In this document: in pieces, positions 21,536 to 56,472 of the stretch
Position numbering within the stretch: position 1 is the stretch's first letter
Layout: every line of letters begins with the position of its first letter
From: Paracoccaceae bacterium
GTDB lineage: Bacteria > Pseudomonadota > Alphaproteobacteria > Rhodobacterales > Rhodobacteraceae
DNA length: 61,353 nucleotides
Direction of reading: 5' to 3'
Assembly (NCBI GenBank): GCA_027013095.1
Contig: JALUYI010000025.1
Location: 1-61,353 of the forward strand
Position numbers and translations under genes: made by a program
The notes under the pieces: model-generated
Told to the model about the DNA's origin: nothing
What the model saw: only the letters and a program-made list of their open reading frames with translations
Databases searched by the model: none

Positions 21536-23571
<2,036 letters not shown>

Positions 23572-23572
23572 G

Positions 23573-23914
23573 TCATTCTCCTGCCTTTTTCAGCTTTTCC
23601 TTGAAGGCCTCGACGGTCAGGCCGGTTTGCTGCGCGCCGATGTCCTGCATGTTGAGGTGGTAGATTCCGGCAAATTTGGCGAGGTAGTAGATATTGCCGC
23701 CCGCCTTGATCATGGCCAGAACGTCGCGATCCCGGCAGGCCTGTTTTTGGGCGTCGTTCAGGCCAAAGCGGCGCATATAGCCCTCGGGGTCGGCCAGATA
23801 GGCCTCGCGCGCTGCAGCCGAGTTGAAGCTGTAGCACATCTTGTTCAGGGCATAGCCTTTCATGGCCATTTCGCCGTCAAAGATGGTGGTGCCGGGGATG
23901 GTCTTTTTGGTCAT
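23573..23914 (-). CDS. ligA: Protocatechuate 4,5-dioxygenase alpha subunit
   Basis: 113 residues, all-helical LigA domain: KMCYSFNSAAAREAYLADPE, RRFGLNDAQKQACRDRDV and GGNIYYLAKFAGIYHLNMQD. It caps the active site of LigB in the alpha2-beta2 enzyme. It overlaps ligI by four bases and is followed directly by ligB. Gallate-type fused enzymes carry both parts in one chain; here they are separate, as in LigAB. Confidence 0.95.
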   Translation of the reverse strand: MTKKTIPGTTIFDGEMAMKGYALNKMCYSFNSAAAREAYLADPEGYMRRFGLNDAQKQACRDRDVLAMIKAGGNIYYLAKFAGIYHLNMQDIGAQQTGLTVEAFKEKLKKAGE

Positions 23915-24795
23915 GTCGGGGTCTCCTCTGGCCAGTAAAGGCGCATGGGGTTGTCCACCAGAAGGGTGCGCTGCACGGCTGGGTCAGGTGCGATCCGCGG
24001 GATGTAATCAACCAGCGCGCCGTCATCGGGCATGTGGCTTTTCATGTTGGGATGGGGCCAGTCGGTGCCCCACAGAACCCGCTGTGGAAATCGTGAGACC
24101 AGCGTGCGGGCAAACGGCAGCACATCATCGTAGGGCGGGCCGCTCTGGCTGAGGCGCTCGGGACAGGTCACCTTGGTCCAGATGTTTTCATGCTCTTCCA
24201 TCAGTCGGACAAAGCGCTGAAACTCGGAGTGCCCGGCCCCTTTTGTCACATCGGGCCGGCCCATATGATCGACCACGACAGGGGTCGGAAGCGCGGCCAA
24301 AAACGGCGCTAGCTCATCAAGGTCAGAGGCCTCGAAATAGACCACCACATGCCAGCCAAAGCGGCTGATCCGTTGCGCAATCTCGTGAAAGATGTGGTGG
24401 GGTGTCTTCTCGACGAGGCGGCGCACAAAGTTGAAGCGCACCGCACGCACGCCCCTCTCGGTCATGTCGGAAAGGGTCTGTTCGCTGACCTCGGGGGCCA
24501 GTGAAACCACGCCCCGCGCGCGCCCATCTGCGGCGTCCAGCGCGTCCAGAAGGGCACGATTGTCCTGCCCGTGGCAGGTCGCCTGCACGATCACGTTGCG
24601 GGCAAATCCAAGGTGGTCGCGCAGCGCGAAAAGTTGGTTTTTGTCGGCATCGCAAGGGGTGTATTTGCGCTGGGGAGCAAAGGGGAAACGGGTGTGGGGG
24701 CCAAAAACGTGGCAATGGGCGTCCACCGCGCCCGCAGGCAGGCGAAAATCGGGTTTCTTCGGGTCGGGGTGAAAGACCAGCCAGTCCGCGTCCAT
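23911..24795 (-). CDS. ligI: 2-Pyrone-4,6-dicarboxylate hydrolase
   Basis: 294-residue amidohydrolase. It begins with the LigI-type DAHCHVFGP motif, has RFNFVRRLVEKTP, VVVDHMGRPDVTKG and the conserved Asp in VLWGTDWPHPNM. LigI hydrolyses the lactone 2-pyrone-4,6-dicarboxylate to 4-oxalomesaconate without a metal, unlike most of its superfamily. TGATG overlap with galD upstream and ATGA overlap with ligA downstream. Confidence 0.93.
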   Translation of the reverse strand: MDADWLVFHPDPKKPDFRLPAGAVDAHCHVFGPHTRFPFAPQRKYTPCDADKNQLFALRDHLGFARNVIVQATCHGQDNRALLDALDAADGRARGVVSLAPEVSEQTLSDMTERGVRAVRFNFVRRLVEKTPHHIFHEIAQRISRFGWHVVVYFEASDLDELAPFLAALPTPVVVDHMGRPDVTKGAGHSEFQRFVRLMEEHENIWTKVTCPERLSQSGPPYDDVLPFARTLVSRFPQRVLWGTDWPHPNMKSHMPDDGALVDYIPRIAPDPAVQRTLLVDNPMRLYWPEETPT

Positions 24796-25841
24796 CAGGC
24801 AAATACCCTTCCATCCATCAGTTTTCGGGCCGTGCGCAGGATCGCCGTGTCGGTGATCTCGTTCCCGTCGTCGAGCCGGACGACCACGGTCATTTCGCCA
24901 CTCGGGTGTTCGATGCTGAGGCGCCGCCGCTGGCCGGTGCCGCGGTCGGCTATGTCAAAGGCGATACTGCCGTTCAAAAGGCAGGCGCGCGCGACCGAGG
25001 CGGCGGCCATGACTCCGATCGCCGCATGGACGCGGTGTGGAATAAAGCTTTGGGTGCGGATCGCGCCGCCCGAACGCGCCGGACTGAGCAGCGTCATCTT
25101 TGGAATCGTCTTGGCGCTGACGTCACCCAGATTCATCCGCGGGCCCAGCGCCAGACGCAAGGTTTCCAGACGTGCGCGGAGGTCGGAGTTGGCCTCCAAC
25201 TCGGCCGGGCTTTCCTGCCCTCCGAGGCCCAACTCCGCGGCCCTCAGCAAAACGCAGGGCATACCGTTGTCGATGCAGCTGACCTCCAGCCCGTCGATGC
25301 GCTCACGGGGCTGGCCCGTCGGCAAGAGGGCGCCACAGGTTGCCCCGGCGATGTCCTGAAAGGCGATCTCGACCGGAGCGGCGGTTCCCGGAACGCCGTC
25401 GATCTTGGCGTCTCCGGTATAAACCACCCGGCCGTTGCGGGTGACTACGCTGAGGGTGGCTGTCTTTTTGGTGTTTTCCATGAACACCCGGACCGTGGTC
25501 ATCCCTTCGCGCGGCGTAACGAGGCCGCGCTCGATGGCAAAGGGGCCGACCCCGGCGAGGATGTTGCCGCAGTTTTGCTGGTCGCTGACGCTGGCGCTGT
25601 CAACGCCGATCTGCAAAAACAGATAATCTACGTCCACCCCGCTGCGGCGCGAGCGGCGCACGATTGCTACCTTGGAGCTGAGCGGATCGCCACCCCCCAT
25701 GCCGTCAATCTGCCGTCGATCCGGGCTGCCCATCATCCGCATAAGAAAGGCGTCACGCGCCTCTGGCAGATCGGAGGCCAGAAAATACCCCCCCTTGGAG
25801 GTGCCGCCGCGCATCCACATGCAGGGGATGCCGTCACTCAT
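24795..25841 (-). CDS. galD: 4-Oxalomesaconate tautomerase (PrpF family)
   Basis: 348 residues from the ATG at 25841, AAGGGG upstream. PrpF-type start [20 protein letters not shown], then [31 protein letters not shown] and the second catalytic-Cys region [12 protein letters not shown]. In Pseudomonas putida GalD converts the keto and enol forms of 4-oxalomesaconate. The neighbours galB, galC and ligI make this the fitting PrpF subfamily. It overlaps galC by 8 bases. Confidence 0.9.
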
Positions 25842-26508
25842 ACCGCAGCCCCTTTCGGGCCAGCCGCGGGCGCATGTCATAAAGATCAAGGCCCAGTTCT
25901 CCGGCTTGAAATCGCGCCCGTTTGCTGGCTTCACCGGCCAGCCGCTCCCGGGCCTTGTGCAAGACGGTTTCGGCATTGCTGCAGGGTACCACGCAGACGC
26001 CGTCGTCATCGGCAATGATCACGTCTCCGGCGTTCACATGCGCTCCGGCGCAGACCACCGGCACATTGACCGAGCCCGGGGTCTCCTTGACGGTTCCCTG
26101 TGCCGATATTGCCCGCGACCAGACCGGAAACCCCATTTGCCGCAGCTCATGCACGTCGCGCACCCCGGTTTCGGTGACCAGCGCACGGCAGCCATGGGCC
26201 ATGGCCGAGGTGGCCAGAAGATCGCCGAAATACCCGGCATCGGAGGGCGAGGTCGTGGCCAGCAGCAGAATATCACCGCCCCGGAGCTGTTCGATGGCGA
26301 CATGCAGCATCCAGTTGTCGCCCGGTGGCGCCAGTATAGTGACCGCCGAGCCGGCGACCCGTACCCCCGAAATAATCGGGCGGATGTTTGCGGCCAGCAG
26401 CCCCTTGCGCCCTTGAGCTTCGTGCACGCAGGCCACCCCGCATTGGCCCAGCCCGTCGATGATCTCGGGGGCTGCGCGCGGGATGTTGCGGATGACGACC
26501 CCGCTCAT
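25834..26508 (-). CDS. galC: 4-Carboxy-4-hydroxy-2-oxoadipate aldolase (RraA-like)
   Basis: 224 residues from the ATG at 26508 ([20 protein letters not shown]). RraA/HMG-aldolase family with the metal/pyruvate pocket [19 protein letters not shown] and [18 protein letters not shown], then [15 protein letters not shown]. It splits 4-carboxy-4-hydroxy-2-oxoadipate to pyruvate and oxaloacetate, the final step. Overlaps galB by four bases (ATGA). Confidence 0.92.
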
Positions 26509-27305
26509 AGCGCGTCCACCGTGCGCGGAAACATCGACTGGAACCCTTCGGCATATTTGGCCGCCCGCCCGCCCGCCTGCCCACCCGAGTTGCGGCGGAA
26601 ATGGTTGGCGCGGTTCTCGGCCACATTGGTATAGAAATCCCACAGATGCTGCTGGCCTTGCATGCATTCGATGGCGGCGCGCTTTTCCTTCCAGACCGGG
26701 GTGATGTCGAGGAACACGTCCGGCTTCCAGCCCATCTGTTCGCTCTGGTGAGGCTCGAACAGGTAGAGCTGCGGCGCCCCCAAAACCCGTTCCCCTGGCT
26801 TGTGGCCCCAGGCCTGCGCGATCATCCGGCACTCCAGAACAAAGCGGGTCGTGTTCATGTGGTCGGTATTATACGGGTCCCACATCGAGTGACTCATCAT
26901 CCATTTCGGTTGCACCTCGCGGATGATGTCCACCAGACGCTCACGGGCGGAGGGGCCAAGGTCCAGCGGGTAGTCTCCGAGGTCCAGAAACCGGATGTCC
27001 TTAACCCCCAGCGCTGCGGCGGCGTTTTCAGCCTCGATGCGGCGCGCTGCCTTGACGGCCGCAAGGGTCATCCCGCCCTGTTTCCACAGTCGCGCACTTT
27101 CGCCGCGTTCACCATAGCTGAGACAGACCACCGTCACTTTTGTGCCGCGGCTCTGGTGCAGCGCGATGGCACCACCCGCCCGCCAGACGAAATCGGCGGC
27201 GTGGGCGCTGATGACAAGAGCGCGGGAGGTTGCACCGGATGTCGGCTGCGCCCCGGGGTTCTGGTCGGTGTTTTTCTCGTCGCCGTCCGGTGTTTTTTCC
27301 GGCAT
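26505..27305 (-). CDS. galB: 4-Oxalomesaconate hydratase (PIG-L/LmbE family)
   Basis: 266 residues from the ATG at 27305 (AGGGA upstream); a TTG further out lacks support. A PIG-L fold is shown by [20 protein letters not shown] (residues 31-50, in place of the deacetylase AHPDDE) and [18 protein letters not shown]. GalB of P. putida is a zinc-dependent hydratase of this family that adds water to 4-oxalomesaconate. Being first in the operon before galC and galD makes a deacetylase role unlikely. Confidence 0.9.
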
Positions 27306-27687
27306 GGATATTGTCCCTGATATTGCCTCTGGTTGCGATGATCCGGCCACAGGCGTCAAAACACTCCGCTCGCCAAGGTCTGCGCGGCGTCAGCCGTCGC
27401 TCTGGCGGGCGGTGGACGGGACCCTCTTGTCCTGAGGCCACTGGCCCTGTTAAGGGGAAATATCGACGCTTTGCTCCGCCCCGTCAATGGGGGATCAATC
27501 GGGAGGTTAAGCCGCTAAAACCGTGCTGGCCCAGCCACCCCAAATTCGCGCCTGAACCTTGGCCAAGGTCGCGTGGGGCCCGCACGGGGCCAATCTGAAA
27601 GGTATCGCAAAGCGCGGATCCTTCGTGTTATGACCTCGGTATCCCGCCCCGAACAGGCAGGTGGCGGGCAGTTGGGTGGAGCCCCTG
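27306..27687. promoter_or_regulatory. Divergent promoter region of the protocatechuate genes
   Basis: 382 bases between galB (minus) and the DUF1932 gene (plus), with no gene of its own. It should carry both promoters. The clearest element is the 14-bp perfect palindrome at 27556-27569. No LysR-type or other regulator gene borders the cluster. Confidence 0.65.
27556..27569. promoter_or_regulatory. 14-bp perfect palindrome, candidate operator
   Basis: ACCTTGGCCAAGGT in the middle of the divergent region, about 250 bases before galB and 120 before the plus-strand genes. Its symmetry and place suit a dimeric regulator. Confidence 0.5.
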
Positions 27688-28617
27688 ATGATGACAGACA
27701 CAGCTGAGAACCCCCGCGCAACACCGCGCCCTGCCATCACAATGATTGGTTTTGGCGAGGCTGCCCGAGCCTTTGTTTCCGGCTGGCGTGAGGTCGGGCA
27801 ACAGGCGCAGATCGCGGCCTTTGACATCAAGACGAACGGCGCTGGCAAGGACGCGATGCAGGCGCAATATCGCGCGCATGGGGTGATCGGGTGCGCAGAC
27901 CCGGCGGGGGCGGTGCAGGGGGCGGCGCTGGTTTTCAGTCTGGTCACCGCGGATCAGGCCGCCGGGGCGGCGCAGGAGGTGGCCGCTGTGATTTCGCCCG
28001 GCGCATTTTACCTTGACGCCAACTCCTGCGCGCCGGGAACAAAACGGCGCAATGCCGCCGTTGTCGAGGCGGTGGGTGGGCGCTATGTCGATGTTGCAAT
28101 CATGGCCCCCGTTCAGCCGCGAAAGCACCGAACACCGATGCTGCTGAGCGGCCCCCATGCCACCGCACTTGTGCCGGTGCTGGCTGATTTGGGGATGACC
28201 GTGCGTCTGGTCAGCGGCCCCGTGGGACATGCGTCGTCGATCAAGATGGTTCGCTCGATCATGGTCAAGGGACTAGAGGCGCTGATGGCGGAATGCCTGC
28301 TTGCCGGGCAGCGCGCCGGGGTCAGTGCCGAGGTTCTGGACAGTCTTGAAGCGTCGGACCCGGAATTTGGCTGGCGCAGGCGCGGCAGCTATAATCTGGA
28401 GCGGATGATGCGCCACGGCCAGCGGCGCGCCGCCGAGATGGACGAGGTTGCCCGGATGTTGGATGAGCTCGACCTGCCACAGGGAATGGCCCGGGCCACC
28501 GCCGACTGGCAGCGCCGGATCGCGGGGCTGGGGCTGGATTCGGGGGCCGATGATCTGAAGGAACGGACCGGACGGGTTCTGGCCGCACTGATGGGCGAGG
28601 CGCTGGACAGATCATAG
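27688..28617 (+). CDS. NAD(P)-dependent dehydrogenase with DUF1932 domain
   Basis: 309 residues; start at 27688 (or the next codon) with GGTGGAG 7 bases ahead. The N-terminal 6-phosphogluconate-dehydrogenase-like Rossmann domain begins ITMIGFGEAARAFVSGWR. The C-terminal DUF1932 helical domain shows GHASSIKMVRSIMVKGLEAL and RAAEMDEVARML. Substrate unknown. It is 57 bases upstream of ligC and divergent from the gal/lig operon, so a part in aromatic-acid catabolism is likely but undefined. Confidence 0.8.
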   Translation: MMTDTAENPRATPRPAITMIGFGEAARAFVSGWREVGQQAQIAAFDIKTNGAGKDAMQAQYRAHGVIGCADPAGAVQGAALVFSLVTADQAAGAAQEVAAVISPGAFYLDANSCAPGTKRRNAAVVEAVGGRYVDVAIMAPVQPRKHRTPMLLSGPHATALVPVLADLGMTVRLVSGPVGHASSIKMVRSIMVKGLEALMAECLLAGQRAGVSAEVLDSLEASDPEFGWRRRGSYNLERMMRHGQRRAAEMDEVARMLDELDLPQGMARATADWQRRIAGLGLDSGADDLKERTGRVLAALMGEALDRS

Positions 28618-28674: not shown

Positions 28675-29637
28675 ATGAAGATTTGTGTGGCCGGCGCCTA
28701 CGGCGCCTTTGGGCAGAAACATCTGGCAGCGCTTGCGGCCATTGAGGGGGTCGAGGTTGTCTCGGTCATGGGTCCGAACCGGGCGCGCATTGACGCGCTT
28801 GCCAAGGAGCGTGGCATTCCCCATGCGGCAACCGACCTTGGCGAATGTCTGGCCCGCCCCGAGGTCGAGGCGGTCATTCTGGCAACCCCGACCGGCGTTC
28901 ACGCGGCACAGGCGCTGGCCTGTCTTGATGCGGGCAAGCATGTTCTGGTTGAAATTCCGATGGCTGACAATCTGGCCGACAGCAAGGCCATCGTTGCCGC
29001 GCAGGCTCGCACGGGGCTGGTGGCCATGGTCGGTCAGGTTCGCCGCTTCAACCCCAGCCACCAGTGGATTCACGACCGGATCACCGCGGGTCAGCTGAAA
29101 ATCCAGCAAATGGACGTTCAGACCTATTTCTTTCGCCGCAGCAACACCAATGCCAAGGGCGAGCCGCGCAGCTGGACCGATCACCTGTTGTGGCATCACG
29201 CCTGCCATACGGTGGACCTGTTTCAATATCAGACCGGCGAGACATGCAGCGCTGCCTTTGGCCTTGAAGGGCCGCATCACCCCGATCTTGGCATTGCCAT
29301 GGACATGTCGATCGGCCTGAAGGTGCCCTCCGGCGCTCTGTGTACGTTGTCTCTCAGCTTTAACAACGATGGTCCGCTGGGAACGTTTTTTCGCTATATC
29401 TGCGACAAGGGAACCTATTTGGCCCGTTATGACGACCTTTACGATGGGTATGACAAGCCGGTGGACCTGTCGGGGGTTGCGGTCTCGAACAACGGTATCG
29501 AACTGATCGACCGCGAGTTCATCACCGCCATCACCGAAGGGCGACAGCCCAATGGTGCGGTTGCCGATGTGTTGGGCACGATGGAGGTGCTGGAGCGGAT
29601 TTCACGCAGCCTGACCGTGGGGCAAGGGCTCGTTTGA
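28675..29637 (+). CDS. ligC: 4-Carboxy-2-hydroxymuconate-6-semialdehyde dehydrogenase
   Basis: 320 residues of the Gfo/Idh/MocA family: KICVAGAYGAFGQKHLAAL at the N-terminus, then the VLVEIPMADN motif (replacing EKP) and HLLWHHACHTVDLFQYQTG. The length and the ring-cleavage context match LigC of Sphingobium, which oxidises the hemiacetal of the LigAB product to 2-pyrone-4,6-dicarboxylate with NAD(P). With ligI and galDBC this closes the route to pyruvate and oxaloacetate. Confidence 0.92.
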   Translation: MKICVAGAYGAFGQKHLAALAAIEGVEVVSVMGPNRARIDALAKERGIPHAATDLGECLARPEVEAVILATPTGVHAAQALACLDAGKHVLVEIPMADNLADSKAIVAAQARTGLVAMVGQVRRFNPSHQWIHDRITAGQLKIQQMDVQTYFFRRSNTNAKGEPRSWTDHLLWHHACHTVDLFQYQTGETCSAAFGLEGPHHPDLGIAMDMSIGLKVPSGALCTLSLSFNNDGPLGTFFRYICDKGTYLARYDDLYDGYDKPVDLSGVAVSNNGIELIDREFITAITEGRQPNGAVADVLGTMEVLERISRSLTVGQGLV

Positions 29638-35757: not shown

Positions 35758-38418
35758 TTAATTCGGTATTTTCAGAACACGGTTGCGGCCGCTCTTGACG
35801 TAGCTGATCGACGAGGTTCCAATTGCCGCGATCTTGCCTCCGGCCACCCGGTCTCCGGGGCGCACCTTCACAAAGCGCCCGCTTGGCAGGCGCAACAGCG
35901 CGCTTCGCCGTGACGGCGTGCCATAAACGCCGATCAGGTTCAGGCGGGACAGGTTGATGGCGTTGCGTACCGTGGCGCGTCTGGCAACAGAGGCCCGCGT
36001 GGGAATATTGGGTCCCACGTTCGAAAACCGTCGGGTCGTGCCGCGTTTCGGCGTTTTCGCGGCGTTGGCCAGTGCCAGTTTCACCCGCACCTTTCTGACG
36101 ATCTTGGAAAAATCGCTGGGTCGGCGCGACGGTTTCAGCGAGGTCAGGGCGGCCAGCGCCGAGGGGCTGTTGCCGCCGGTGGCGGCGTGCAATTGTTGAA
36201 ACGAGGGAGGGCGTGGCTTGGCACGCAGCTTGCGCAGTTGCGTCAGCGTTAGCTTGCCCTGCACATAGATCGCATCGGCGCCGGTCTTGAGGGTTGCGGG
36301 CCGCGGTTTCGGTTTCAGGGCGGCCAGCGGGTTCGGCGGAACCAGTTGGGCAGTCTCGGGTTTTTTCGGCGGAAAGACCGGAGGTTTGCCCGCGCGCACC
36401 AGAATACCGTCAGGGTTCAGCGTGCCTTTGGGCGAGGGCTTGACCAGACCGTTCGCGTCGGTTTTGATCGAAATTCCCGGATCCAGCGGCGACAGAACCC
36501 GTGGTGGTGGCAGCTCACCCACGCCATTGCTGAAATCCGGCAGGATGATCGCATCGTTGGCCTCCAGCGGACGATCGACGCTGGCGACATAGATATCCTC
36601 GCGCTGCGGGTTGGCCTCGGGCGCTGGAGGGATGCGGATCTGTTGCAGCGCCCCGGTCGCCTTGTAGGCGGCGGCAACCTCGGCGGCGGATTTCTGCTGG
36701 CGATTGCCGGTCGCGTCAGCCAGTTCTTCGGGGGTTGGCGTGTTCAGTCCGGCGGCGCGAATGTCCGCAAGCTCCTGCTCGGACAGGGTGGTGACCGGCG
36801 CCGCGGTATCCGGCAGCTTGGCATTGGGATCGGCGCGCCCTTCAAAGACCGAGCGGCGGGCCGGTCGGATCGGCTTGGTCGGGGCGCTGCTGCTTGCCAG
36901 CCGCTTGGCAAGACGCGTGGGGCGCGATGGCGGCGGCGTTCTGGCGCGCCCCCGGCTGACTGCAAGCTGGGGTTGCGGTGTGGCCTTTTGGGCCGTCGTC
37001 CGGGGCGATGAGGGATGCTTTTGCGTCCCCCTCATCTGCCAGAGGGAAAGCCCGCCGACAAGCGCCAGAACCAGCACCGCAGCAACAAGGCCAAGTCGAA
37101 CGCGTTTTGTGGCAGCGCCAGGGTCGCTGTCCTGACTGTCGCTTTCTGCACCCTCCGAGCTTGGCGGCTGGCTGAAGGTGGGTTCGATGCGCGGGCGCGG
37201 CCCGGTTTTCTGCCGGTTGCGGATGGCCTGCGACATGCTCCCCAGCGCCTGTGTCGCACGCGCGGCCAGCGATTTGATCGCCGACGGTCCCCGCCCGCCG
37301 GAATTGTGCCCCGCAGAATTGCCGCCTTCGGGGCTGGATTTCTTCAGCATTGCCCGCAGCAAACCGGCGGCACGACCTGCACCACGAGCTTTGGCCCCGG
37401 GCGGCTCGTCCGCGCCCATAATTGCGCGGCGCAGATCGGCGTTTCGGTCACCCGGCGTGCCCCCTTGGGGCGGCGTTTCCGCAGGGGCCGCTGCAAGCGA
37501 GTCGGACGCCGCTGTGGCCTCGGCTGCGGCGGGTGGTTCGGGTATGGTGCTGTCGGTGCCGGTAGCGTTGGTATCCGGGCCGGTCAGTTCTGGTTCTGGC
37601 GCGATGGCGATGCGCGGCGTGACCCGCTCCAGCGGGCGCGGCTGGTCCGGGTCGATCCCGACCGCTGCGGCGGTTTCGGGGTTGTGGCGACGCGAGGAAA
37701 ACGGCGGGATTGGCGCCGCCGGTTCCGGCTGTTCCGGCGGGGCCTCTGGCTCGGGTTGGGAGACGGGGTCGGGCACGGCCTCTGATTCGGGGGCGAAAAT
37801 ATTCTGTTCGGGATCGACGGGCGGTTCGGCCTCTTCAGCGGCGAAATCCTCGGCAAACAGGTTCTCGCTCGCGTCCTGCAGCAGGGCCGGAGCGGGGGTG
37901 TCGCGAACCTCGGCATCGGCCCCGAGAAAGGCGAATGAATAGTCGGTACGCCCAAAGAAGGGCTGCCAAGCGCCGGGTTCGGCGCTTTCGCGGCCAACGA
38001 AACTGACCGGGTTGAAGCGATGTTCGACGGCAAAGCTTTCGGCCTCGTCAAGCGTGACATTGGCCACGACCGCCACCTTTACCGTTGCGCCCTCGGGCAG
38101 CCAGTCATAGGTCAGGTCGGCAACGTCATAGCGGGTCGCCCCCTCCAGCGCCTGCTTGATCTGCGCGTCACGCTCGGCCTGCGTGGGACCGGGGGCGTTG
38201 ATCTCGCGGTAGAGGATTTCGGAGTTCGGCAGAATCAGCTTGGAGGCAAAGCCCTTGCCCTCCAGCGCCACTGCCGTGCTGCGCAGGTAGGACAGGTTCT
38301 TGGACAGGCCCGGGTCGTCCAGTTTGACATTCCCCACCTCCGTCCAGTGGCCATTCGGGGCCCGGTGCAACAGAACGATGCCGTCTTGCGACAAATCAAG
38401 GGCGAAATTCGGTTTCAT
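35758..38418 (-). CDS. Large bitopic membrane protein with PilM/GspL-like and PilP/GspC-like ends
   Basis: 886 residues. Residues 1-165 (start MKPNFALDLSQDGIVLLHRA) resemble the cytoplasmic actin-like part of PilM/GspL-type proteins. Residues 170-435 are acidic and Pro-rich. One membrane span lies at about 440-461, followed by a long Arg/Pro/Ala-rich periplasmic stretch. The last about 70 residues (LNLIGVYGTPSRRSALLRLP, then GRFVKVRPGDRVAGG) look like the PilP/GspC homology-region fold. This is pattern similarity only. No pilus or type-II-secretion genes are nearby, so the function is open. Confidence 0.65.
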   Translation of the reverse strand: MKPNFALDLSQDGIVLLHRAPNGHWTEVGNVKLDDPGLSKNLSYLRSTAVALEGKGFASKLILPNSEILYREINAPGPTQAERDAQIKQALEGATRYDVADLTYDWLPEGATVKVAVVANVTLDEAESFAVEHRFNPVSFVGRESAEPGAWQPFFGRTDYSFAFLGADAEVRDTPAPALLQDASENLFAEDFAAEEAEPPVDPEQNIFAPESEAVPDPVSQPEPEAPPEQPEPAAPIPPFSSRRHNPETAAAVGIDPDQPRPLERVTPRIAIAPEPELTGPDTNATGTDSTIPEPPAAAEATAASDSLAAAPAETPPQGGTPGDRNADLRRAIMGADEPPGAKARGAGRAAGLLRAMLKKSSPEGGNSAGHNSGGRGPSAIKSLAARATQALGSMSQAIRNRQKTGPRPRIEPTFSQPPSSEGAESDSQDSDPGAATKRVRLGLVAAVLVLALVGGLSLWQMRGTQKHPSSPRTTAQKATPQPQLAVSRGRARTPPPSRPTRLAKRLASSSAPTKPIRPARRSVFEGRADPNAKLPDTAAPVTTLSEQELADIRAAGLNTPTPEELADATGNRQQKSAAEVAAAYKATGALQQIRIPPAPEANPQREDIYVASVDRPLEANDAIILPDFSNGVGELPPPRVLSPLDPGISIKTDANGLVKPSPKGTLNPDGILVRAGKPPVFPPKKPETAQLVPPNPLAALKPKPRPATLKTGADAIYVQGKLTLTQLRKLRAKPRPPSFQQLHAATGGNSPSALAALTSLKPSRRPSDFSKIVRKVRVKLALANAAKTPKRGTTRRFSNVGPNIPTRASVARRATVRNAINLSRLNLIGVYGTPSRRSALLRLPSGRFVKVRPGDRVAGGKIAAIGTSSISYVKSGRNRVLKIPN

Positions 38419-39309: not shown

Positions 39310-42300
39310 CTAAAGGTCGATCTCGATCACACCATCCTTGTCCCGGGCCCGCGACTGGCACAGGATCATTGCCGTTTTCCGTTGCTCGTTTGACAACACA
39401 AAATCCCGGTGCTCGACCGCGCCCGAGACCAGCGTGCATTTGCAGACGCCACAGATTCCGTCCGCGCATTTGACTGTGACGGGGACGCCGTTTTCAGCCA
39501 GAACATCGGTTGCCGAGCGGTCTGCCGGAACCCGTAGCTCGCGTCCCGAGCGGGTCAGGCGCAGAATGAAATCGTGGTTTTCATGGGCTGGCTGCGGGGG
39601 CGGCGTGAAATATTCGAGATGCCGGTTTTCCTCGGGAAAGCCGTTGTCCGTCGCGGCCTCGAGAACCGCCTGCATGTAGCGGTCCGGCCCGCAGGTATAG
39701 ACGTGACAGTTCTGTTGCCATTGCAGGATCTTGCCGAGATCGGCCCGTTGCCCCTGATCGGACAGGTGTAGATGGACCCGCGCGGCCCAAGGGGTGGCGG
39801 CCAGCTCGTCCAGAAATGCCGCGTCGGATGCCCGGGTGGCAGAGTAGTGCAGTTCAAAGGACGCTCCCAGTGCGTGCAGGCGGTGGGCCATGGCGATCAT
39901 CGGGGTGACGCCGATGCCGCCTCCCATCAGAAAACTGTGGGCGGCGCTTTCACACAGCGGGAAATGGTTCACCGGTTTTGAGATGAACACCATCCGGCCA
40001 ACCTGAAACACCTTGTGCATCAGGCGTGAGCCGCCACGCCCCGTGTCTTCGCGCAGAACCGCAATCTGGTAATGCGCTTGCTCGGCGGGGTTGCTCATCA
40101 GCGAATATTGGCGAAAATACTCGGGCGCAACGACGACCTCGATATGGGCGCCGGCCTCAAAGGCGGGCAGGGGGCTGCCGTCGGGCATGGAAAATGTGTA
40201 TTTGACGATGTCTGATGTCATTTGCTGTACCCCGGACAGGCGCACATGCAGGACCGGAACGTCGAGGCGGTCGTTGGTATAGACATGCTCGGGCGGCAGA
40301 CCACGAGCCCGGCGCGCCTTGTAGGTCGCCGCGTCAATCATCTCGCCATAGGCGCGGATCCCGCCTTCGCGGTCCATCGGGAAGGGCCATGAATAGGGCG
40401 GTGGGGCCAGCGGCGCCGGATAGACGGCCAGTGTCTGGTCCTGATGGCGCAGCTTCAGATCCTTTTGCAGGGCGCGGGCGTTGACCGGGTGGGGCGAGGG
40501 CGCATAGGGGCCCTCGTCGATCATCTCCAGATCCCACCACCATTTCTTGACCGGGTTGATCTGGCCATTGCCCAGCAGATCGTCGAGGCGGGCCAGAACG
40601 GGGGCGCTGCCCGGGATGTTCATTGCCCCCCAGCGAAACGGGCGCTCGGCGAATATGCCTTCCAGATTCCACGGGCAGGTCTTCATGCAGCGCCCGCACA
40701 TCGCGCCGTTTTTCTGGGCGACGCGGTAGGTCAGGCATTTCGAGCTGTCCGATTTCCAGATCTCATAGCCGTTGAACATCAGTTTCGGCCCGGCCGTGAT
40801 CGCCCCCGAGGGGCATTCGCGCGCGCATTTGTTGCAGGATTCGCAAAACCGTTGCAGGCCGAAATCGATCGGTTTGTCCGGGGTCATCGGCATGTTGGTG
40901 GTGATCACGCCGGATTTCAGGCGCGGGCCGAGGAACGGGTTCAGGATGACCTCGCCAATGCGGCTGACCTCGCCAAGCCCGGCCAGCAGCAGCAAGGGTG
41001 GGTTCAGAACCTCGTCATCCATGACACTGTGGACCCGGGCGCTCCAGCCAAGGTTGCGCAACTGCTGTGCCAGAACGCCGCCGATCAGGGAAAACCGCAA
41101 ATAGGCCCGCATGCTTTGCGCGCAGGCAATCCAGTCGTCGCCCGAGGCACCCTCCATGGTTTCGTGCCCCTGATCGACGATCGCCGAGATGGCGTTCTTG
41201 TGATAAGGCACAATCGGCTCGCCGACCGCGTTGTGTGAATAATAGGCGTAGTCCGGGCAGGGGCTGAGGCCAACCGCATCGATCCCGAGAAAATAGAGCG
41301 TCGCCTTTAGATTGGCGGCATTGCGCGCCGCATCCGCCGTTTTGGGGTCGCGCTGTGTATTGGCGGTGCCGTCCTGCAGAACGGTGAGCGCCCCGAGACT
41401 GGGACGAAAGGCAAAGGCCGCGGCGGATTTGCGCACATAATTGCCGTCTTTTGCCCCGGCTTGGGCAATCGGACCGAGGTCGCCAAACAATGCCCGCGCA
41501 AACATGTTGGCGCGTTTTGGCACCCGCGCGACGTTCTTGGCATCAATCAGGGTGGTGGGGTTTTCAACACGGCGCAACGTCTCGAACGGATGCGGGCCAT
41601 CCCGAAACAGGCGTTTGGCATAAGGATCACGGTTCCACGCGTTTTTGGCCTGTGGACCAAGGCCGGTTTTCCATCGCCAGCCGGGTTTCTGGCCGGGGGC
41701 CAAGGGCAGATCGGCAGCCATCTCCAGTGTTGTTGTGATCGCCGCCAGACCAAAGCGCGGGCCGAGAAACGGATTGACCAGCGCCGACCCTTCGACCACG
41801 GCCAGACCTGCAGCGACCGCCAGTTTACCAAGGTCGATATCGCTGGCCGCACCGGAATGGGCGCGCGCCTCATAACCCAGAAGGCGGATGTAGTTGGCAA
41901 GGGTGACGGCGGTCTCTGCCCCGCGCAGGCAGGCCCGTTGCGCCTGTGCGTTCTGTATCCAGTCACAGCCCGGCTCATCCAGAGCCGGATCGCGGGGATA
42001 GTCGTAAAGAAAGACGATGGCATGTGTGTGATGCCGGCAGTTCCCGAGTGGGGTTTTCAGGTTTTCCCGCAGCGCCGCCATGATCATATCGATCCCGGAT
42101 GCAAATGTCTTGGGTTGCAGGGTCTGCAGCTTGTTCCCAAGGCGCACGACATCCGGATTTTCCAGTGGCGTCTCGGCCCACGCGTCGGGCCGGATCCGGC
42201 AGATTGCGACCATCGCAGCGTCGCAGTAATAGCCAAAAGATTTCAGATGGTTGGCGCGTTCATTCGGGTCCCTGGGAATGTCGGCACGTTGCGATTTTAC

Positions 42301-42507
42301 TGGCCCGTCGCGGGTGGCGTCCAGCATCGCCTGATAGTCCCGCATCGCATTCACGATCGAAGCCGGATCCTCGGGGCGATGAAAGGACACCGCCTGCATC
42401 GCCTGAACGCGCGACAGGTCGGCATCCTCGCCGGTGCGCGCCAGCGTTTCCAGAGGGTAGGGCCCAAGATGCATGGGCCGGTTGCGGTAGGAAAAGAGCT
42501 TGGCCAT
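39310..42507 (-). CDS. Self-sufficient reductive dehalogenase fused to flavin/2Fe-2S reductase
   Basis: 1065 residues, no Tat signal and no membrane span, so cytoplasmic. Residues about 80-390 are a decayed duplicate of the B12 domain. Residues 395-550 are the likely cobalamin/catalytic domain (SPCPDYAYYSHN, Tyr420/422/423; NPFLGPRLKSGVITT). Two 4Fe-4S motifs follow (Cys555/558/561/565 in CESCNKCAREC, then Cys591, Cys604/607/611). From about 745 there is a phthalate-dioxygenase-reductase-like part: flavin site RQYSLMS (799-805), NAD site MGGGIGVTPM (861-870) and a C-terminal 2Fe-2S ferredoxin (Cys1014, 1019, 1022, 1050). This layout is that of catabolic enzymes BhbA (Comamonas 7D-2) and NpRdhA (Nitratireductor pacificus), which remove halogen from phenolic rings with NAD(P)H. 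The substrate here is inferred. Confidence 0.88.
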   Translation of the reverse strand: MAKLFSYRNRPMHLGPYPLETLARTGEDADLSRVQAMQAVSFHRPEDPASIVNAMRDYQAMLDATRDGPVKSQRADIPRDPNERANHLKSFGYYCDAAMVAICRIRPDAWAETPLENPDVVRLGNKLQTLQPKTFASGIDMIMAALRENLKTPLGNCRHHTHAIVFLYDYPRDPALDEPGCDWIQNAQAQRACLRGAETAVTLANYIRLLGYEARAHSGAASDIDLGKLAVAAGLAVVEGSALVNPFLGPRFGLAAITTTLEMAADLPLAPGQKPGWRWKTGLGPQAKNAWNRDPYAKRLFRDGPHPFETLRRVENPTTLIDAKNVARVPKRANMFARALFGDLGPIAQAGAKDGNYVRKSAAAFAFRPSLGALTVLQDGTANTQRDPKTADAARNAANLKATLYFLGIDAVGLSPCPDYAYYSHNAVGEPIVPYHKNAISAIVDQGHETMEGASGDDWIACAQSMRAYLRFSLIGGVLAQQLRNLGWSARVHSVMDDEVLNPPLLLLAGLGEVSRIGEVILNPFLGPRLKSGVITTNMPMTPDKPIDFGLQRFCESCNKCARECPSGAITAGPKLMFNGYEIWKSDSSKCLTYRVAQKNGAMCGRCMKTCPWNLEGIFAERPFRWGAMNIPGSAPVLARLDDLLGNGQINPVKKWWWDLEMIDEGPYAPSPHPVNARALQKDLKLRHQDQTLAVYPAPLAPPPYSWPFPMDREGGIRAYGEMIDAATYKARRARGLPPEHVYTNDRLDVPVLHVRLSGVQQMTSDIVKYTFSMPDGSPLPAFEAGAHIEVVVAPEYFRQYSLMSNPAEQAHYQIAVLREDTGRGGSRLMHKVFQVGRMVFISKPVNHFPLCESAAHSFLMGGGIGVTPMIAMAHRLHALGASFELHYSATRASDAAFLDELAATPWAARVHLHLSDQGQRADLGKILQWQQNCHVYTCGPDRYMQAVLEAATDNGFPEENRHLEYFTPPPQPAHENHDFILRLTRSGRELRVPADRSATDVLAENGVPVTVKCADGICGVCKCTLVSGAVEHRDFVLSNEQRKTAMILCQSRARDKDGVIEIDL

Positions 42508-42567: not shown

Positions 42568-43017
42568 TTAAAGGCCGGGCACGCTTTGCGTTTCACCCGT
42601 CATCAGTCTGGCGATGGTGGCGCCCAAGGCTTCGCGTTCGGGGCGCGACAGTTTTTCGTTGAAATGGGCCGCATTCTCACGCGCGGCATCGGTGGCTCGC
42701 GCCAGCGTGCTCCGGCCCTTGCCGGTGATCGTGACCCTTGTTGTCCGCCGGTCGCGCTGCCCACCCTGACGTTTCACGAGGGCGCTGTGCTCCAGCCGCC
42801 TCAGGGCGCGCGATGTGGCGGTGCGGTCGATGCCAATATAGCTGGCGATTTCGGACGGGCTGTGCAGCCCCTGCTGCTCCAGCGCAAGCAGGACGCACCA
42901 AGTCACCCGTGACAGGCCAAGCGGTGTCAAAGCGCGCTCGAACCGCCGTTCGCTGATCCGGGCAAGCAGGGTGATCTGATAGCCGAGCGAGCCGTGTAAA
43001 TCATAGGGTTCCATCAT
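42568..43017 (-). CDS. MarR-family transcriptional regulator
   Basis: 149 residues from the ATG at 43017. Winged helix: GLSRVTWCVLLALEQQGLHS, then ASYIGIDRTATSRALRRLE (recognition helix), and the basic wing GGQRDRRTTRVTITGKG. MarR proteins usually repress until an aromatic ligand binds. It is 60 bases upstream of the dehalogenase gene on the same strand, so the two probably form one unit. A 32-bp inverted repeat lies right before its start. Likely control: self-repression and dehalogenase induction by the substrate. Confidence 0.88.
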   Translation of the reverse strand: MMEPYDLHGSLGYQITLLARISERRFERALTPLGLSRVTWCVLLALEQQGLHSPSEIASYIGIDRTATSRALRRLEHSALVKRQGGQRDRRTTRVTITGKGRSTLARATDAARENAAHFNEKLSRPEREALGATIARLMTGETQSVPGL

Positions 43018-43020
43018 ATG

Positions 43021-43052
43021 TGACAGTGTCAATCAACTGATTGTCGCTGTCA
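43021..43052. promoter_or_regulatory. 32-bp inverted repeat, candidate MarR operator
   Basis: TGACAGTGTCAATCA (43021-43035) and TGATTGTCGCTGTCA (43038-43052) match as inverted arms at 13 of 15 positions with a 2-base centre. It begins 4 bases before the marR start codon, where bound protein would block transcription or initiation. Confidence 0.6.
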
Positions 43053-43170
43053 ACCATATCGCCCGTCCCCGGCGGTTTTACTGCGGCCACGGCTGTGGTT
43101 GCGCCGGCGGCGAAAACATGCTTGCCTCGCCACGGGCATCGCAGCGGGCCGCATACGGAGACATGACAAC

Positions 43171-43872
43171 ATGACGACGCCAATCAAGGGAATCCTGTTT
43201 GACAAGGACGGCACGCTTTTTGATTTTCACACCACATGGGGGGCATGGGCGGCGACCTTTTTTCTGGATTTGGCCGGGGGAGATCGGCAGCGCGCCGGCG
43301 AAATGGCCCGGCCCCTCGGCTATGATTTCCAGACTTGTGCATTTCAGAAAGATAGCGTGATCATCGCCGGCACCCCGGAGGAGGTCACCGCCGCCATAAT
43401 CGACGCTGTTCCGAATTGGGCCGAGGCCGATATCATCCGGCATATCAACAAGGTATCCTCTGATGTTCCGCAGGCCGAGCCGGTCCCGCTCAGGCCGTTG
43501 CTCAAGGGTCTGAGGGCGCGGGGTATCCGTCTGGGGGTGGCGACCAATGATGCGCAGGCCCCGACACAGGTGCATCTTGCCAAGGCGGGGATTGCCGAGC
43601 TGTTTGATTTTGTCGCCGGGTTCGATAGCGGCTTTGGTGCCAAGCCGGACATCGGAATGCAGCGCGCCTTTTGCGCCGCGGTCGGCCTGAGACCGGCAGA
43701 ATGTCTGATGGTCGGGGATTCCGAACACGACCTGATTTCGGGGCGCCGGGCGGGAATGGCGGTGGCGGCGGTTCTGACCGGAATGGCCGATCACGACGAC
43801 CTTGCCCCTCTGGCGGATGTCGTGCTGGACAATATTGGCGGGATTCCTGACTGGCTGGGGTTGTCCTTGTAA
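43171..43872 (+). CDS. HAD-family hydrolase (phosphoglycolate-phosphatase-like)
   Basis: 233 residues from the ATG at 43171 (GGAG upstream). HAD motifs: LFDKDGTLFDF (Asp nucleophile and acid), GVATNDAQAP (motif II), KPDIGM (motif III Lys) and MVGDSEHDLISGRRAG (motif IV). The DxDGT form indicates a phosphatase rather than a haloacid dehalogenase. Divergent from marR, sharing its control region; the link to dehalogenation is unproven. Confidence 0.85.
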   Translation: MTTPIKGILFDKDGTLFDFHTTWGAWAATFFLDLAGGDRQRAGEMARPLGYDFQTCAFQKDSVIIAGTPEEVTAAIIDAVPNWAEADIIRHINKVSSDVPQAEPVPLRPLLKGLRARGIRLGVATNDAQAPTQVHLAKAGIAELFDFVAGFDSGFGAKPDIGMQRAFCAAVGLRPAECLMVGDSEHDLISGRRAGMAVAAVLTGMADHDDLAPLADVVLDNIGGIPDWLGLSL

Positions 43873-46825: not shown

Positions 46826-48721
46826 ATGACCAAGATGGCAACGATTGCCGACAAGGAAGCGCTGGAACAGGCGATGCCTTTCGAGGACCGGATGACGGCC
46901 CGCACCATGTATCAATACGTCAAGCAGACCGCAGATCGCTTTCCCGAGCGTCCGGCGCTGACCTTCCAGATCACCTCGGGGCCGACCGACAAGGCCGAAA
47001 CCCTTAACTGGGCGCAGGTTCTGGCCAAGGTCACACAGGCGGCCAATCTGTTTCGCCGCCTCGGGGTGGGGGAAAAGGATGTAGTTGCCTATCTCCTACC
47101 CAACGCCAACGAGACCGCGATCACCCTTTTGGGCGGCGCCGTGGCCGGGATTGTTAATCCGATCAACCCGCTGCTTGAACCCGAGCAGATCGGCGCCATC
47201 CTGCGGGAAACCGGCGCCAAGGTTCTGGTGACGATGAAATCCTTTCCCAAGACCAACGTGGCGCAGCTGGCCGAAGAGGCCGTCAGCCATGCGCCAAACG
47301 TGAAAACCGTGCTCGAGGTTGACCTTCTGCACTATCTCACCCCTCCAAAAAGCTGGCTGGTGCCGTTCCTGCGTCCCAAGAACGAGGTGCATCATCACGC
47401 CAAGGTGCTGGATTTCAACCGCGAGCTTGGCAAGCAACGCAGCGACGGGCTGGACTTTGAGGACGCGACCACCGACCGCATCGCCGCCTATTTCCACACC
47501 GGCGGCACGACGGGAATGCCCAAGGTCGCACAGCATCGCTATTCCGGCATGATATATCAGGGCTGGTGTGCGACTGAATTGTTGCTGACCGAGGCCGACG
47601 TGACCCTGTGCCCGCTGCCGCTGTTTCATGTCTTTGCCGCCTATCCGATCCTGATGGCCAATATTGGTGCCGGCAGCCATATGGTGATGCTGACGCCCGC
47701 GGGCTATCGCGGCGAAGGGGTCTTTCAGAACTTCTGGAAGCTGGTCGAGCGTTGGCACGCGACCTTTATGGTCATGGTCCCGACTGCGGCGGCAGCGCTG
47801 ATGCAGGTGCCGATCAATGCCGATGTTTCCAGCCTGAAAACCGCCTTTTGCGGCTCGGCCCCGTTGCCGGTGGAATTGTTCAACCGTTTTCAAAAGGCCA
47901 CCGGCGTGACCATCCTTGAGGGCTATGGCATGACCGAGGCGACCTGCCTGATCTCGGACAACCCCTTTGATGGCGAAAAGAAAATCGGCTCGGTCGGTAT
48001 TCCGTTCCCCTATACCGACGTCAAAATTCTGGATTGCAAACCCGATGGCGAGGTGATCCGGGAAATGGGTGTGGACGAGGTTGGCGAGATCTGCGTCAGC
48101 AACCCCGGCATCATCCCCGGCGGCACCTATACCGAGGCGGCCAAGAACGAGGGGTTGTTTGCGCTGGACAAGTACCTGCGCACCGGGGATCTGGGGCGTC
48201 TGGATGCCGATGGCTATCTGTGGATCACCGGGCGCGCCAAGGATCTGATCATCCGTGGTGGGCACAATATCGACCCCGCCACCATAGAAGAGGCGCTGGC
48301 CGCCCATCCCGACGTGGCCTTTGTCGGCGCAATCGGGCAGCCGGATGCACATTCCGGCGAGGTGCCTTGCGCCTATGTCGAGCTGGTCGCCGGTGCAACG
48401 GCCTCGGTTGATGAGCTGATGGAGTTTGCCCGCGAACGCATCGGTGAGCGCGCTGCGGTGCCGAAATATCTGGAGATCCTGCCAGAGTTGCCCAAGACCG
48501 CAGTCGGCAAGATATTCAAACCGGATCTGCGCAAGCGGGCGATCACCCGGGTCTTTGATGCGGCTCTGAAAGAGGCCGGACTGGCGGCCCATGTTTCAGA
48601 AGTCGTCGAGGACAAAAAGCGCGGCCTGCTGGCCAAACTGGTCAAGACCGGCGAGGTCGATGAGGCGGCCATCAAGGCCTGTCTTGGCGATTTCATCACC
48701 AAATGGGACTGGGCGGCCTGA
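46826..48721 (+). CDS. Acyl-CoA synthetase (AMP-binding)
   Basis: 631 residues, GAGGGGA upstream. ANL-family motifs: P-loop YFHTGGTTGMPK, GYGMTEATCL, RTGDLGRLDADGYLWITGRA and the C-terminal catalytic Lys region LPKTAVGKIFKP. Forms an acyl-adenylate and then the CoA thioester. Its place just before the importer and benzoate genes suggests an aromatic or fatty acid substrate, but the sequence does not say which; it is clearly distinct from the benzoate-CoA ligase at 54101. Confidence 0.85.
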   Translation: MTKMATIADKEALEQAMPFEDRMTARTMYQYVKQTADRFPERPALTFQITSGPTDKAETLNWAQVLAKVTQAANLFRRLGVGEKDVVAYLLPNANETAITLLGGAVAGIVNPINPLLEPEQIGAILRETGAKVLVTMKSFPKTNVAQLAEEAVSHAPNVKTVLEVDLLHYLTPPKSWLVPFLRPKNEVHHHAKVLDFNRELGKQRSDGLDFEDATTDRIAAYFHTGGTTGMPKVAQHRYSGMIYQGWCATELLLTEADVTLCPLPLFHVFAAYPILMANIGAGSHMVMLTPAGYRGEGVFQNFWKLVERWHATFMVMVPTAAAALMQVPINADVSSLKTAFCGSAPLPVELFNRFQKATGVTILEGYGMTEATCLISDNPFDGEKKIGSVGIPFPYTDVKILDCKPDGEVIREMGVDEVGEICVSNPGIIPGGTYTEAAKNEGLFALDKYLRTGDLGRLDADGYLWITGRAKDLIIRGGHNIDPATIEEALAAHPDVAFVGAIGQPDAHSGEVPCAYVELVAGATASVDELMEFARERIGERAAVPKYLEILPELPKTAVGKIFKPDLRKRAITRVFDAALKEAGLAAHVSEVVEDKKRGLLAKLVKTGEVDEAAIKACLGDFITKWDWAA

Positions 48722-48773
48722 GTCCGAACTGGGCAGCCGTTCCGCGGGGCCCAAAGGAATTTGTTGCGACTCG

Positions 48774-48827
48774 TGCATAATAGTGCAACTTTATCGGCAT
48801 TGGGCATCGAGTATGCCAAATAATGCA
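48774..48827. promoter_or_regulatory. Phased TGCA half-sites upstream of the importer
   Basis: TGCA at 48774, 48784 and 48824, with TGCC at 48814, all spaced in multiples of 10 bases. TGCA repeats six bases apart are the known operator pattern of BzdR/BoxR benzoyl-CoA-responsive repressors. Lies 68-121 bases before the substrate-binding-protein gene. Confidence 0.5.
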
Positions 48828-48894
48828 TAAGATCCTGAGTTTGACAGGACGCCACAAATGGAACAACGTCAGAGTTACCAACGGGAGAGAACAC

Positions 48895-50070
48895 ATGAAA
48901 CGACTACTGAGCGCGGCTCTGGCCGCGACGATGCTGACCACCCCCAGCTGGGCGGGTGAGGTCAAGATCGGCTTTGTCACCACCCTGACCACCGGCGGCG
49001 CCGTGATCGGCAACGACCAGAAAAAGGCCGTCGATCTGGCGCTGGAGCATATCGGCCACAAGATGGGCGGGCTGGATGTCAACCTGATTTACGCCGATGA
49101 CGGGTTCAAGCCCGATATCGGCAAACAGGCAACCGACAAGCTGGTAAAACAGGACAACGTCACCTTTGTGGCCGGTTATATCTGGAGCCACGTCTTGCTG
49201 GCGTCGCGAAAATCGGCCTTGGATGCGGGGAAATTCCTGATTTCCGCCAATGCTGGGCCCAGCCCGATTGCCGGCAAGCTGTGCAACAAGAACTTTTTCT
49301 CGACCAGCTGGCAAAACGATCAGACGCCGATGGCGATGGGCGAGGTCCTGAACCAGAAGGGGGTGAAATCCCTCTATATTATTGCGCCCAATTATGCCGC
49401 AGGCAAAAACATGGTGGCCGGGGTCGAGCGCACCTTCAAGGGCAAGATCCTCGGCAAGGACATGACCAAATGGCCAACGCAGCTGGACTTTTCCTCGGAG
49501 CTTGCCAAGGCCAAGGCCTCGGGGGCCGAAGCGCTGTTCATCTTCTTTCCGGGCAAGGCGGGTGGAGCCTTTATCAAGCAATATCAACAGGCCGGCCTGA
49601 AAGACGTCCTGCCACTCTATACGGTATTTACGGTTGATGCGCTCAGCTTGCCGAAGCTGCAAAAAGCCGGGTTCAGCGACATCCTCGGCTCACAATTTAC
49701 CCAAGAATGGGACCCTTCGCTGGATAATGCGCAGAACAAGCGTTTCGTCCATGATTTCAAGGCCAAATATGGCAGTTACCCGTCGTTTTACGCCGCGCAG
49801 GCCTATGATTCGATCTTTCTGATCAAATCGGCGGTCGATGCGGTTCATGGTGACCTGACCAATATGGATGGTATGCGCGCGGCGATGAAGGCGGCGAATT
49901 TCCCCTCGGTCAGGGGCAAGTTCACCTATGGCAACAACCATTTCCCGATCCAGAACTTCTATCTGCGCCAAGTGGTCAAGGATGGCGACGGCAACTGGAC
50001 GACCAAGGTTGTGAAAACGGTTTATACCGCCAATCAGGACCCCTATCACGCCCAATGCGCGCTGAAATAG
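48895..50070 (+). CDS. ABC importer substrate-binding protein (HAAT/Liv type)
   Basis: 391 residues from the ATG at 48895 (GGGAGAG upstream). The signal peptide MKRLLSAALAATMLTTPSWA is cleaved near residue 20. Type-1 periplasmic fold beginning VKIGFVTTLTTGGAVIGNDQ. The family binds branched amino acids, amides or aromatic acids. Being the first gene of the benzoate operon suggests it captures benzoate or a relative in the periplasm; inference. Confidence 0.88.
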   Translation: MKRLLSAALAATMLTTPSWAGEVKIGFVTTLTTGGAVIGNDQKKAVDLALEHIGHKMGGLDVNLIYADDGFKPDIGKQATDKLVKQDNVTFVAGYIWSHVLLASRKSALDAGKFLISANAGPSPIAGKLCNKNFFSTSWQNDQTPMAMGEVLNQKGVKSLYIIAPNYAAGKNMVAGVERTFKGKILGKDMTKWPTQLDFSSELAKAKASGAEALFIFFPGKAGGAFIKQYQQAGLKDVLPLYTVFTVDALSLPKLQKAGFSDILGSQFTQEWDPSLDNAQNKRFVHDFKAKYGSYPSFYAAQAYDSIFLIKSAVDAVHGDLTNMDGMRAAMKAANFPSVRGKFTYGNNHFPIQNFYLRQVVKDGDGNWTTKVVKTVYTANQDPYHAQCALK

Positions 50071-50095
50071 GCCTTGCCTGACATCTGAACACAAG

Positions 50096-50126
50096 CGCGA
50101 CCGGAGATAACGATTTTCCGGTCGCG
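50096..50126 (+). other. Intercistronic hairpin between binding protein and permeases
   Basis: CGCGACCGG (50096-50104) pairs perfectly with CCGGTCGCG (50118-50126). No T run follows. Such hairpins after the binding-protein gene commonly protect its message or cut read-through so that binding protein exceeds permease. Confidence 0.6.
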
Positions 50127-50159
50127 TCCCCCCAACGGACAATTTTCGGAAAACCTGTC

Positions 50160-52809: not shown

Positions 52810-52812
52810 GAG

Positions 52813-53514: not shown

Positions 53515-53558
53515 CGGAGGGATGCGGGTTTTTCAACTTTCGGACAGGAGATGGAAAA

Positions 53559-54026: not shown

Positions 54027-54100
54027 TCGTATCGAAACAGTTTGCGCGACAGGACGAAAGGATGACGCCCGCCGCCAGGGATTTGCAATCGGGAGGATTG

Positions 54101-56469: not shown

Positions 56470-56472
56470 GCA

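Follow-up and report, generated by a model that had tools for sequence, protein, structure and literature searches.

The gene rdhA, found in a 61,353-nucleotide stretch of a Paracoccaceae bacterium (GenBank assembly GCA_027013095.1, contig JALUYI010000025.1; here called the window), raises the question of which kind of corrinoid enzyme it encodes, how that enzyme would receive its electrons, and which compound it would act upon. Judged from its sequence, the 1065-residue product (RdhA) is very probably a cytoplasmic, self-sufficient catabolic reductive dehalogenase of the BhbA/JtRdhA type, an assessment that covers jointly the first three steps of the mechanism proposed below. In a search of NCBIfam profiles, RdhA scored 201.4 bits with TIGR02486 (reductive dehalogenase), above the curated cutoff of 160.35. 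The closest solved sequences were those of NpRdhA (4ras, E 2.4e-164; 6zxu, E 3.8e-164), which aligned with residues 3 to 109 and 155 to 732, and the C-terminal third (residues 753 to 1062) matched the phthalate dioxygenase reductase 2pia (E 1.4e-57). The next solved relatives were 6laa and 6kbh, both P450s fused to a reductase. Pfam placed Fer4-type clusters at residues 555 to 614 and Fer2 at 985 to 1054, and a match to FAD_binding_6 at 755 to 849 (20.6 bits) fell slightly below its cutoff of 21.1. As alignments and a tree put RdhA in a large conserved family, the open reading frame (ORF) is not a chance reading. The TIGR02486 score and the 2pia-like C-terminal module agree with the first-pass annotation of this DNA, which had proposed a catabolic, self-sufficient enzyme with a built-in reductase.

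Conservation was examined in an alignment of 86 proteins, comprising RdhA, 80 relatives, and five plasmid-borne homologues. Residues S422, M423, Y426, K488, and R552 of NpRdhA correspond to S465, M466, Y469, K531, and R595 of RdhA, and all five were identical in 86 of 86 proteins; F291 of NpRdhA aligned with F336. The first 4Fe-4S motif is C555-x2-C-x2-C-x3-C565 (C555, C558, C561, and C565), and in the second C591 accompanies C604-x2-C-x3-C611 (C591, C604, C607, and C611); each of these eight cysteines was kept in every aligned protein (86/86). The reductase module carries the motifs RQYS (799 to 802) and GGGIGVTP (862 to 869), together with the 2Fe-2S cysteines C1014-x4-C-x2-C1022 and C1050. 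Of the latter, C1014, C1019, C1022, and C1050 were retained in every ungapped row (86, 85, 85, and 84 rows, respectively). The first-pass annotation had claimed that the cofactor chain could be read in order from Cys motifs and nucleotide sites, and these motifs were indeed located. It had also named absence of the catalytic Tyr as a sign against its reading; Y469 is present, as are the Lys (K531) and the Arg (R595).

The corrinoid domain is duplicated, with the N-terminal and C-terminal halves matching each other in hhalign at a probability of 99.2 (E 8.3e-20; 33% identity over 172 columns). The N-terminal copy is vestigial, having C193 at the position of the catalytic Tyr and G253 at that of the Lys. 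Across the alignment the Tyr position of this copy is occupied by C, A, or G (86/86 proteins) and the Lys position by G, T, S, or Q. Excerpts of PMC10463259 describe such a vestigial duplication as the hallmark separating catabolic RdhAs from others. An AlphaFold2 (AF2) model, built from 51 proteins (RdhA and 50 of the 80 relatives), had a mean predicted local distance difference test (pLDDT) value of 75.3 and a predicted TM-score (pTM) of 0.76. With this model as a query, Foldseek ranked NpRdhA chains at the top (best E 8.1e-52; TM-score 0.80 by target length; root mean square deviation 6.1), followed by 6laa, 2pia (E 1.7e-28), and 6kbh.

The enzyme class is one already described, JtRdhA and BhbA having been characterized, and it is common in the host family; RdhA is a further member. 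JtRdhA of Jhaorihella thermophila (WP_104007082) has a duplicated corrinoid domain, two 4Fe-4S clusters, and a fused phthalate-dioxygenase-reductase module in the same order as RdhA, lacks a Tat (twin-arginine translocation) signal, and keeps the same key residues, a likeness drawn from the description in PMC10463259 (excerpts) and not from sequence identity. JtRdhA has been purified and assayed, whereas RdhA is known from its sequence. BhbA of Comamonas sp. 7D-2 (WP_015585978) is colinear with RdhA over the full length, at 48.7% identity (516 of 1059 columns). The catalytic part of NpRdhA, from Nitratireductor pacificus (4RAS, 6ZXU), is approximately 40% identical to RdhA in the structure match, but NpRdhA is naturally truncated and without a fused reductase (PMC10463259, excerpts). 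Thus, of the two proteins cited as self-sufficient examples in the first-pass annotation, BhbA stands and NpRdhA does not. Relative to NpRdhA, RdhA has approximately 45 extra residues (110 to 154) between the two aligned blocks, in agreement with an insert that PMC10463259, as excerpted, describes for fused enzymes.

Because the same residues and modules are kept, the mechanism of JtRdhA is the most likely one for RdhA. In a first step, suggested by the motifs and by JtRdhA, NAD(P)H would transfer a hydride to the flavin in the reductase module at the C terminus. Single electrons would then travel via the C-terminal 2Fe-2S cluster and both 4Fe-4S clusters until they reach the catalytic domain and its base-off cob(II)alamin; the Cys motifs are seen in RdhA and the order of transfer is borrowed from JtRdhA. 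In a third step, an ortho-halogenated phenol would bind with its hydroxyl against S465, K531, and R595 and its halogen at the cobalt, and Y469 would donate a proton coupled to cleavage of the carbon-halogen bond, the residues being present in RdhA and their roles taken from NpRdhA. For JtRdhA, oxidation of NADPH is 1:1 with dehalogenation of brominated and iodinated phenols, in air too, and its cofactors are flavin mononucleotide, 2Fe-2S, 4Fe-4S, and base-off cobalamin, with chlorinated analogues acting only as inhibitors (PMC10463259, excerpts). The host genome encodes CobN (TIGR02257, 1602.7 against a cutoff of 822.05), the sole B12 gene searched for, and hence the host can probably make its own B12. 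Oxygen-tolerant dehalogenation driven by NAD(P)H is of use in bioremediation.

By analogy with JtRdhA, bromo- and iodophenols are more likely substrates of RdhA than chlorophenols. The best reading is that RdhA would debrominate ortho-bromophenols with electrons from NAD(P)H, the products probably entering the catabolism of 4-hydroxybenzoate; 3,5-dibromo-4-hydroxybenzoate is a plausible but not certain substrate. In a fourth step, of which we are much less sure, the dehalogenated phenol, perhaps 4-hydroxybenzoate, would enter aerobic catabolism via pobA, ligAB, and the later 4,5-cleavage genes (Table 1). These downstream aromatic genes (pob-lig, and box genes described below), lying in the same stretch as rdhA, are what the window adds to the known systems.

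Several observations weigh against this reading. In the AF2 model, pLDDT falls below 50 at residues 565 to 609 and 614 to 622, which surround the second 4Fe-4S motif. In the pocket, A419 of NpRdhA, beside the second halogen, is replaced by C462, and K307, a contact of the carboxylate in one complex of NpRdhA, is matched by A352 in a pairwise alignment where a local shift is possible; given these two changes, a carboxylated substrate is not assured. Position 462 is C in 74 of the 86 aligned proteins, V in eight, S in three, and T in one; S is found in BhbA and the OM-1 protein, and V in the three other plasmid-borne homologues. The distribution of pobA points the same way. Among the 50 best-scoring of at least 145 rdhA-bearing genomes, a pobA match (E <= 1e-100) was present in 38 and lacking in 12. 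It lay on a contig other than that of rdhA in 30 of the 50, with hence no measurable distance, and on the same contig in eight, of which five had it 69 kb to 2.5 Mb away. The remaining three were closer than 20 kb: 16.6 kb in the window, where unrelated genes such as those for SelO and guanine deaminase intervene, 247 bp in genome G073, and 365 bp in genome G197. Linkage of rdhA to pobA is therefore recurrent but uncommon.

It may also be that the same enzyme, by a mechanism compatible with the first three steps, acts on a natural marine bromophenol or similar compound with no link to 4-hydroxybenzoate, in detoxification and not in feeding. Such a role would fit the finding that just three of 50 genomes have pobA at less than 20 kb from rdhA, the changes at C462 and A352, and the activity of a short-type Roseobacter debrominase on 2,6-dibromophenol (PMC13101508, excerpts), but the window holds an almost complete set of 4,5-cleavage genes, two other genomes have pobA next to rdhA, and pobA-lig genes adjoin rdhA homologues on two plasmids. 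On pOM-1 (Nitratireductor sp. OM-1), an rdhA whose product is 48 to 49% identical to that of the window is followed by genes for DUF1932, Gfo/Idh, LigB, LigA, and PobA on the opposite strand. On pBHB, the region upstream of bhbA has, after one intervening gene, ligA and ligB and, ahead of these, a pobA match that spans 278 residues; unlike rdhA of the window, bhbA is plasmid borne, belongs to a betaproteobacterium, and has insertion sequence elements and a gene for a TTT-type binding protein near it. In the close loci of G073 and G197 (19 kb each), no pob-lig query besides pobA was matched. Our literature search found no paper pairing bhbA with pobA or a Roseobacter reductive dehalogenase with protocatechuate. 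We consider the marine bromophenol role to fall somewhat short of an even chance, and rate it no lower because the distance to pobA was measurable in only eight of the 38 pobA-bearing genomes.

A wider proposal, to be taken as a whole, is advanced tentatively and stays on the doubtful side: that the 61-kb window would hold most of an aerobic route leading from bromo- or iodo-4-hydroxybenzoate into central metabolism (RdhA, PobA, LigAB, and lower 4,5-cleavage) beside a benzoyl-CoA pathway, in a host that probably makes B12, and that self-sufficient RdhAs with C462 are tuned to natural marine bromophenolics. If so, marine organobromine would be debrominated in oxygenated waters by this common family, with no need of anaerobes.

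Two further identities were weighed for RdhA. That it serves organohalide respiration is very improbable: it has the RDH domain in common with respiratory enzymes and matched PceA at E 3.9e-33 in the search of solved structures, but it carries the vestigial duplication and a fused reductase, and neither a twin-arginine motif nor an anchor ORF was found. The RR pair was absent from residues 1 to 60 in a simple motif scan made with no dedicated signal-peptide predictor, and a loose hydropathy scan of 37.5 to 45 kb gave no membrane-anchor-like ORF (50 to 140 aa with at least two transmembrane-like stretches). Both results accord with the first-pass annotation, which had noted neither a Tat signal nor an anchor gene. 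The sole hydrophobic stretch flagged in RdhA, at residue 226, lies within the vestigial domain. An epoxyqueuosine reductase (QueG) or QueG-like enzyme with a fused reductase, the match named in the first-pass annotation as contrary to its reading, can practically be dismissed, as TIGR00276 matched weakly over residues 490 to 604, at 27.7 bits against a cutoff of 200, while TIGR02486 exceeded its own, and NpRdhA Y426, K488, and R552 are all kept, the kinship that remains being that of class III corrinoid/4Fe-4S enzymes in common (PMC10463259, excerpts).

To determine how widespread RdhA is, 394 genomes of the same family, from 393 genera, were surveyed. Matches at E <= 1e-20 were found in 236 genomes, though many of these, far weaker in score, we take for matches to the reductase only. 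A full-length fused homologue (match covering at least 998 residues) was present in at least 145 genomes, so the description of the type as rare in the first-pass annotation has to be abandoned. TIGR02486 was above its cutoff in 149 genomes, including those with a second, short type. Weaker TIGR02486 matches extended to 382 genomes, and 10 of 14 control genomes matched too, none above the cutoff; the pattern is as expected if the matches below the cutoff are mostly QueG. Among 72,556 plasmid records, eight had an RdhA match with a coverage of 80% or more. A quick tree was made of 38 proteins, namely RdhA, 30 relatives out of the 80, the five plasmid-borne homologues, and two additional proteins, with BhbA and the OM-1 protein as the chosen outgroup. 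In it, RdhA grouped with L002, L003, and L060 (SH-aLRT 97) inside rows from Rhodobacteraceae and Roseobacteraceae, in keeping with the alphaproteobacterial setting first proposed. Putative bhbA homologues are said to be widespread in the Roseobacter clade (PMC13101508, 2026, excerpts). With this spread in a family of many marine members, ordinary heterotrophs may account for the turnover of bromophenols in oxygenated water.

Some genomes of the family have a second protein of the RDH family, which is short (open frames of approximately 390 to 480 codons, e.g., G027:C66:51074-51658 and G038:C8:31416-32009). Ros_A3X954 of Roseobacter sp. MED193, the Tat-less debrominase active on 2,6-dibromophenol (PMC13101508, excerpts), appears to be of this kind, as its Cys motifs lie at residues 283 to 345, unlike those of the 1069-residue match in the same strain (L078). 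Its activity is reported to be lost upon exposure to oxygen, and air tolerance is thus not to be presumed outside the fused type. In one genome (G340:C29:202381-205005), an rdhA match limited to residues 1 to 871 lay in an open frame of 2585 codons.

Table 1. Features of RdhA and its surroundings in the window
Feature	Coordinates	Strand	Basis
rdhA, putative self-sufficient catabolic reductive dehalogenase, 1065 aa	39310..42507	minus	ATG start; family profiles, structure relatives, alignment
Vestigial N-terminal copy of corrinoid domain, ~residues 1-345	41473..42507	minus	hhalign of N-half vs C-half
Catalytic corrinoid domain and two 4Fe-4S motifs, ~residues 360-665	40513..41430	minus	alignments
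Phthalate-dioxygenase-reductase module (flavin, NAD(P), plant-type 2Fe-2S), ~residues 753-1065	39313..40251	minus	Pfam, 2pia match, motifs, Foldseek
MarR-family protein directly upstream of rdhA; candidate regulator	42568..43032	minus	profiles, position
HAD hydrolase, divergent from MarR gene	43099..43872	plus	
pobA, 4-hydroxybenzoate 3-monooxygenase; 391-aa core 21536-22711	21536..22837	minus	TIGR02360 656.9 > 538.7
ligB, class III extradiol dioxygenase; putative protocatechuate 4,5-cleavage	22723..23571	minus	NF009901 451.9 > 290; PF02900 191.7 > 26.3
ligA, small subunit	23570..23914	minus	PF07746 118.6 > 25.3
Amidohydrolase, putatively LigI-like	23911..24795	minus	PF04909; NF042924 240.9, below cutoff 500
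4-Oxalomesaconate tautomerase	24795..26015	minus	NF033377 504.3 > 440
ligK, 4-carboxy-4-hydroxy-2-oxoadipate aldolase	25834..26832	minus	TIGR02798 346.1 > 304.5
PIG-L family protein	26505..27359	minus	PF02585 88.9 > 28.2
DUF1932 protein; homologue adjoins rdhA on pOM-1	27661..28617	plus	
Gfo/Idh/MocA oxidoreductase, putatively LigC-like; homologue near rdhA on pOM-1	28675..29637	plus	

To identify genes that accompany rdhA, 89 rdhA loci were compared (flanks of up to 8 kb, shorter in many; L082 to L090 partly repeat genomes of L002 to L081). Anywhere in these loci, and not among immediate neighbors alone, the HAD protein of the window was matched in 66 and the MarR protein in 48. HAD was rejected as a partner specific to rdhA, since it was matched in 363 of the 394 family genomes (E <= 1e-20). 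MarR matches (E <= 1e-28) occurred in 66 of the 394; in at least 17 of these, rdhA lay no more than 75 bp away, and at least 22 others had HAD, but not rdhA, as a neighbor at 300 bp or less. The divergent MarR/HAD pair thus recurs in the family without rdhA too, and rdhA may have been inserted on the downstream side of MarR. The terms MarR and Rdh2R gave no match in the text of one regulator paper that was searched. Other families frequently flanking rdhA were GGDEF, MTTB, DUF3572, NUDIX, DUF983, sigma-70, HNOB, and EamA. The MTTB (trimethylamine methyltransferase-like) gene lay upstream of rdhA on the opposite strand in 40 of 80 loci (L002 to L081), possibly reflecting a shared background gene order. 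Queries for AcsL and the ligase gave two matches each in the 89 loci, at 28 to 30% identity. Conserved partnership between rdhA and a box cluster was not supported, with no BoxA, BoxB, or BoxC match within these flanks, beyond which a more distant cluster would escape.

The pathway roles of the amidohydrolase, PIG-L, DUF1932, and Gfo/Idh proteins of the window are putative; the PIG-L protein may be a 4-oxalomesaconate hydratase, similar to GalB. The true start of ligK is probably inside the ORF, since the TIGR02798 match starts at residue 111. One more LigB-domain protein (94.8 bits) is encoded elsewhere in the host genome, on contig C55. An 886-aa proline-rich protein with one hydrophobic stretch is encoded at 35758-38418 (minus strand) and had no Pfam match at E <= 0.001. 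At 53.9 to 61.0 kb, the benzoate-CoA ligase (subfamily model), BoxC, BoxB, and BoxA all scored above curated cutoffs. They form part of an apparent aerobic benzoate cluster at 46826-60968 (plus strand), comprising genes for an acyl-CoA synthetase, a branched-chain-type ABC transporter, a PnbB-family protein, the benzoate-CoA ligase, and an alpha/beta hydrolase, followed by boxC, boxB, and boxA.

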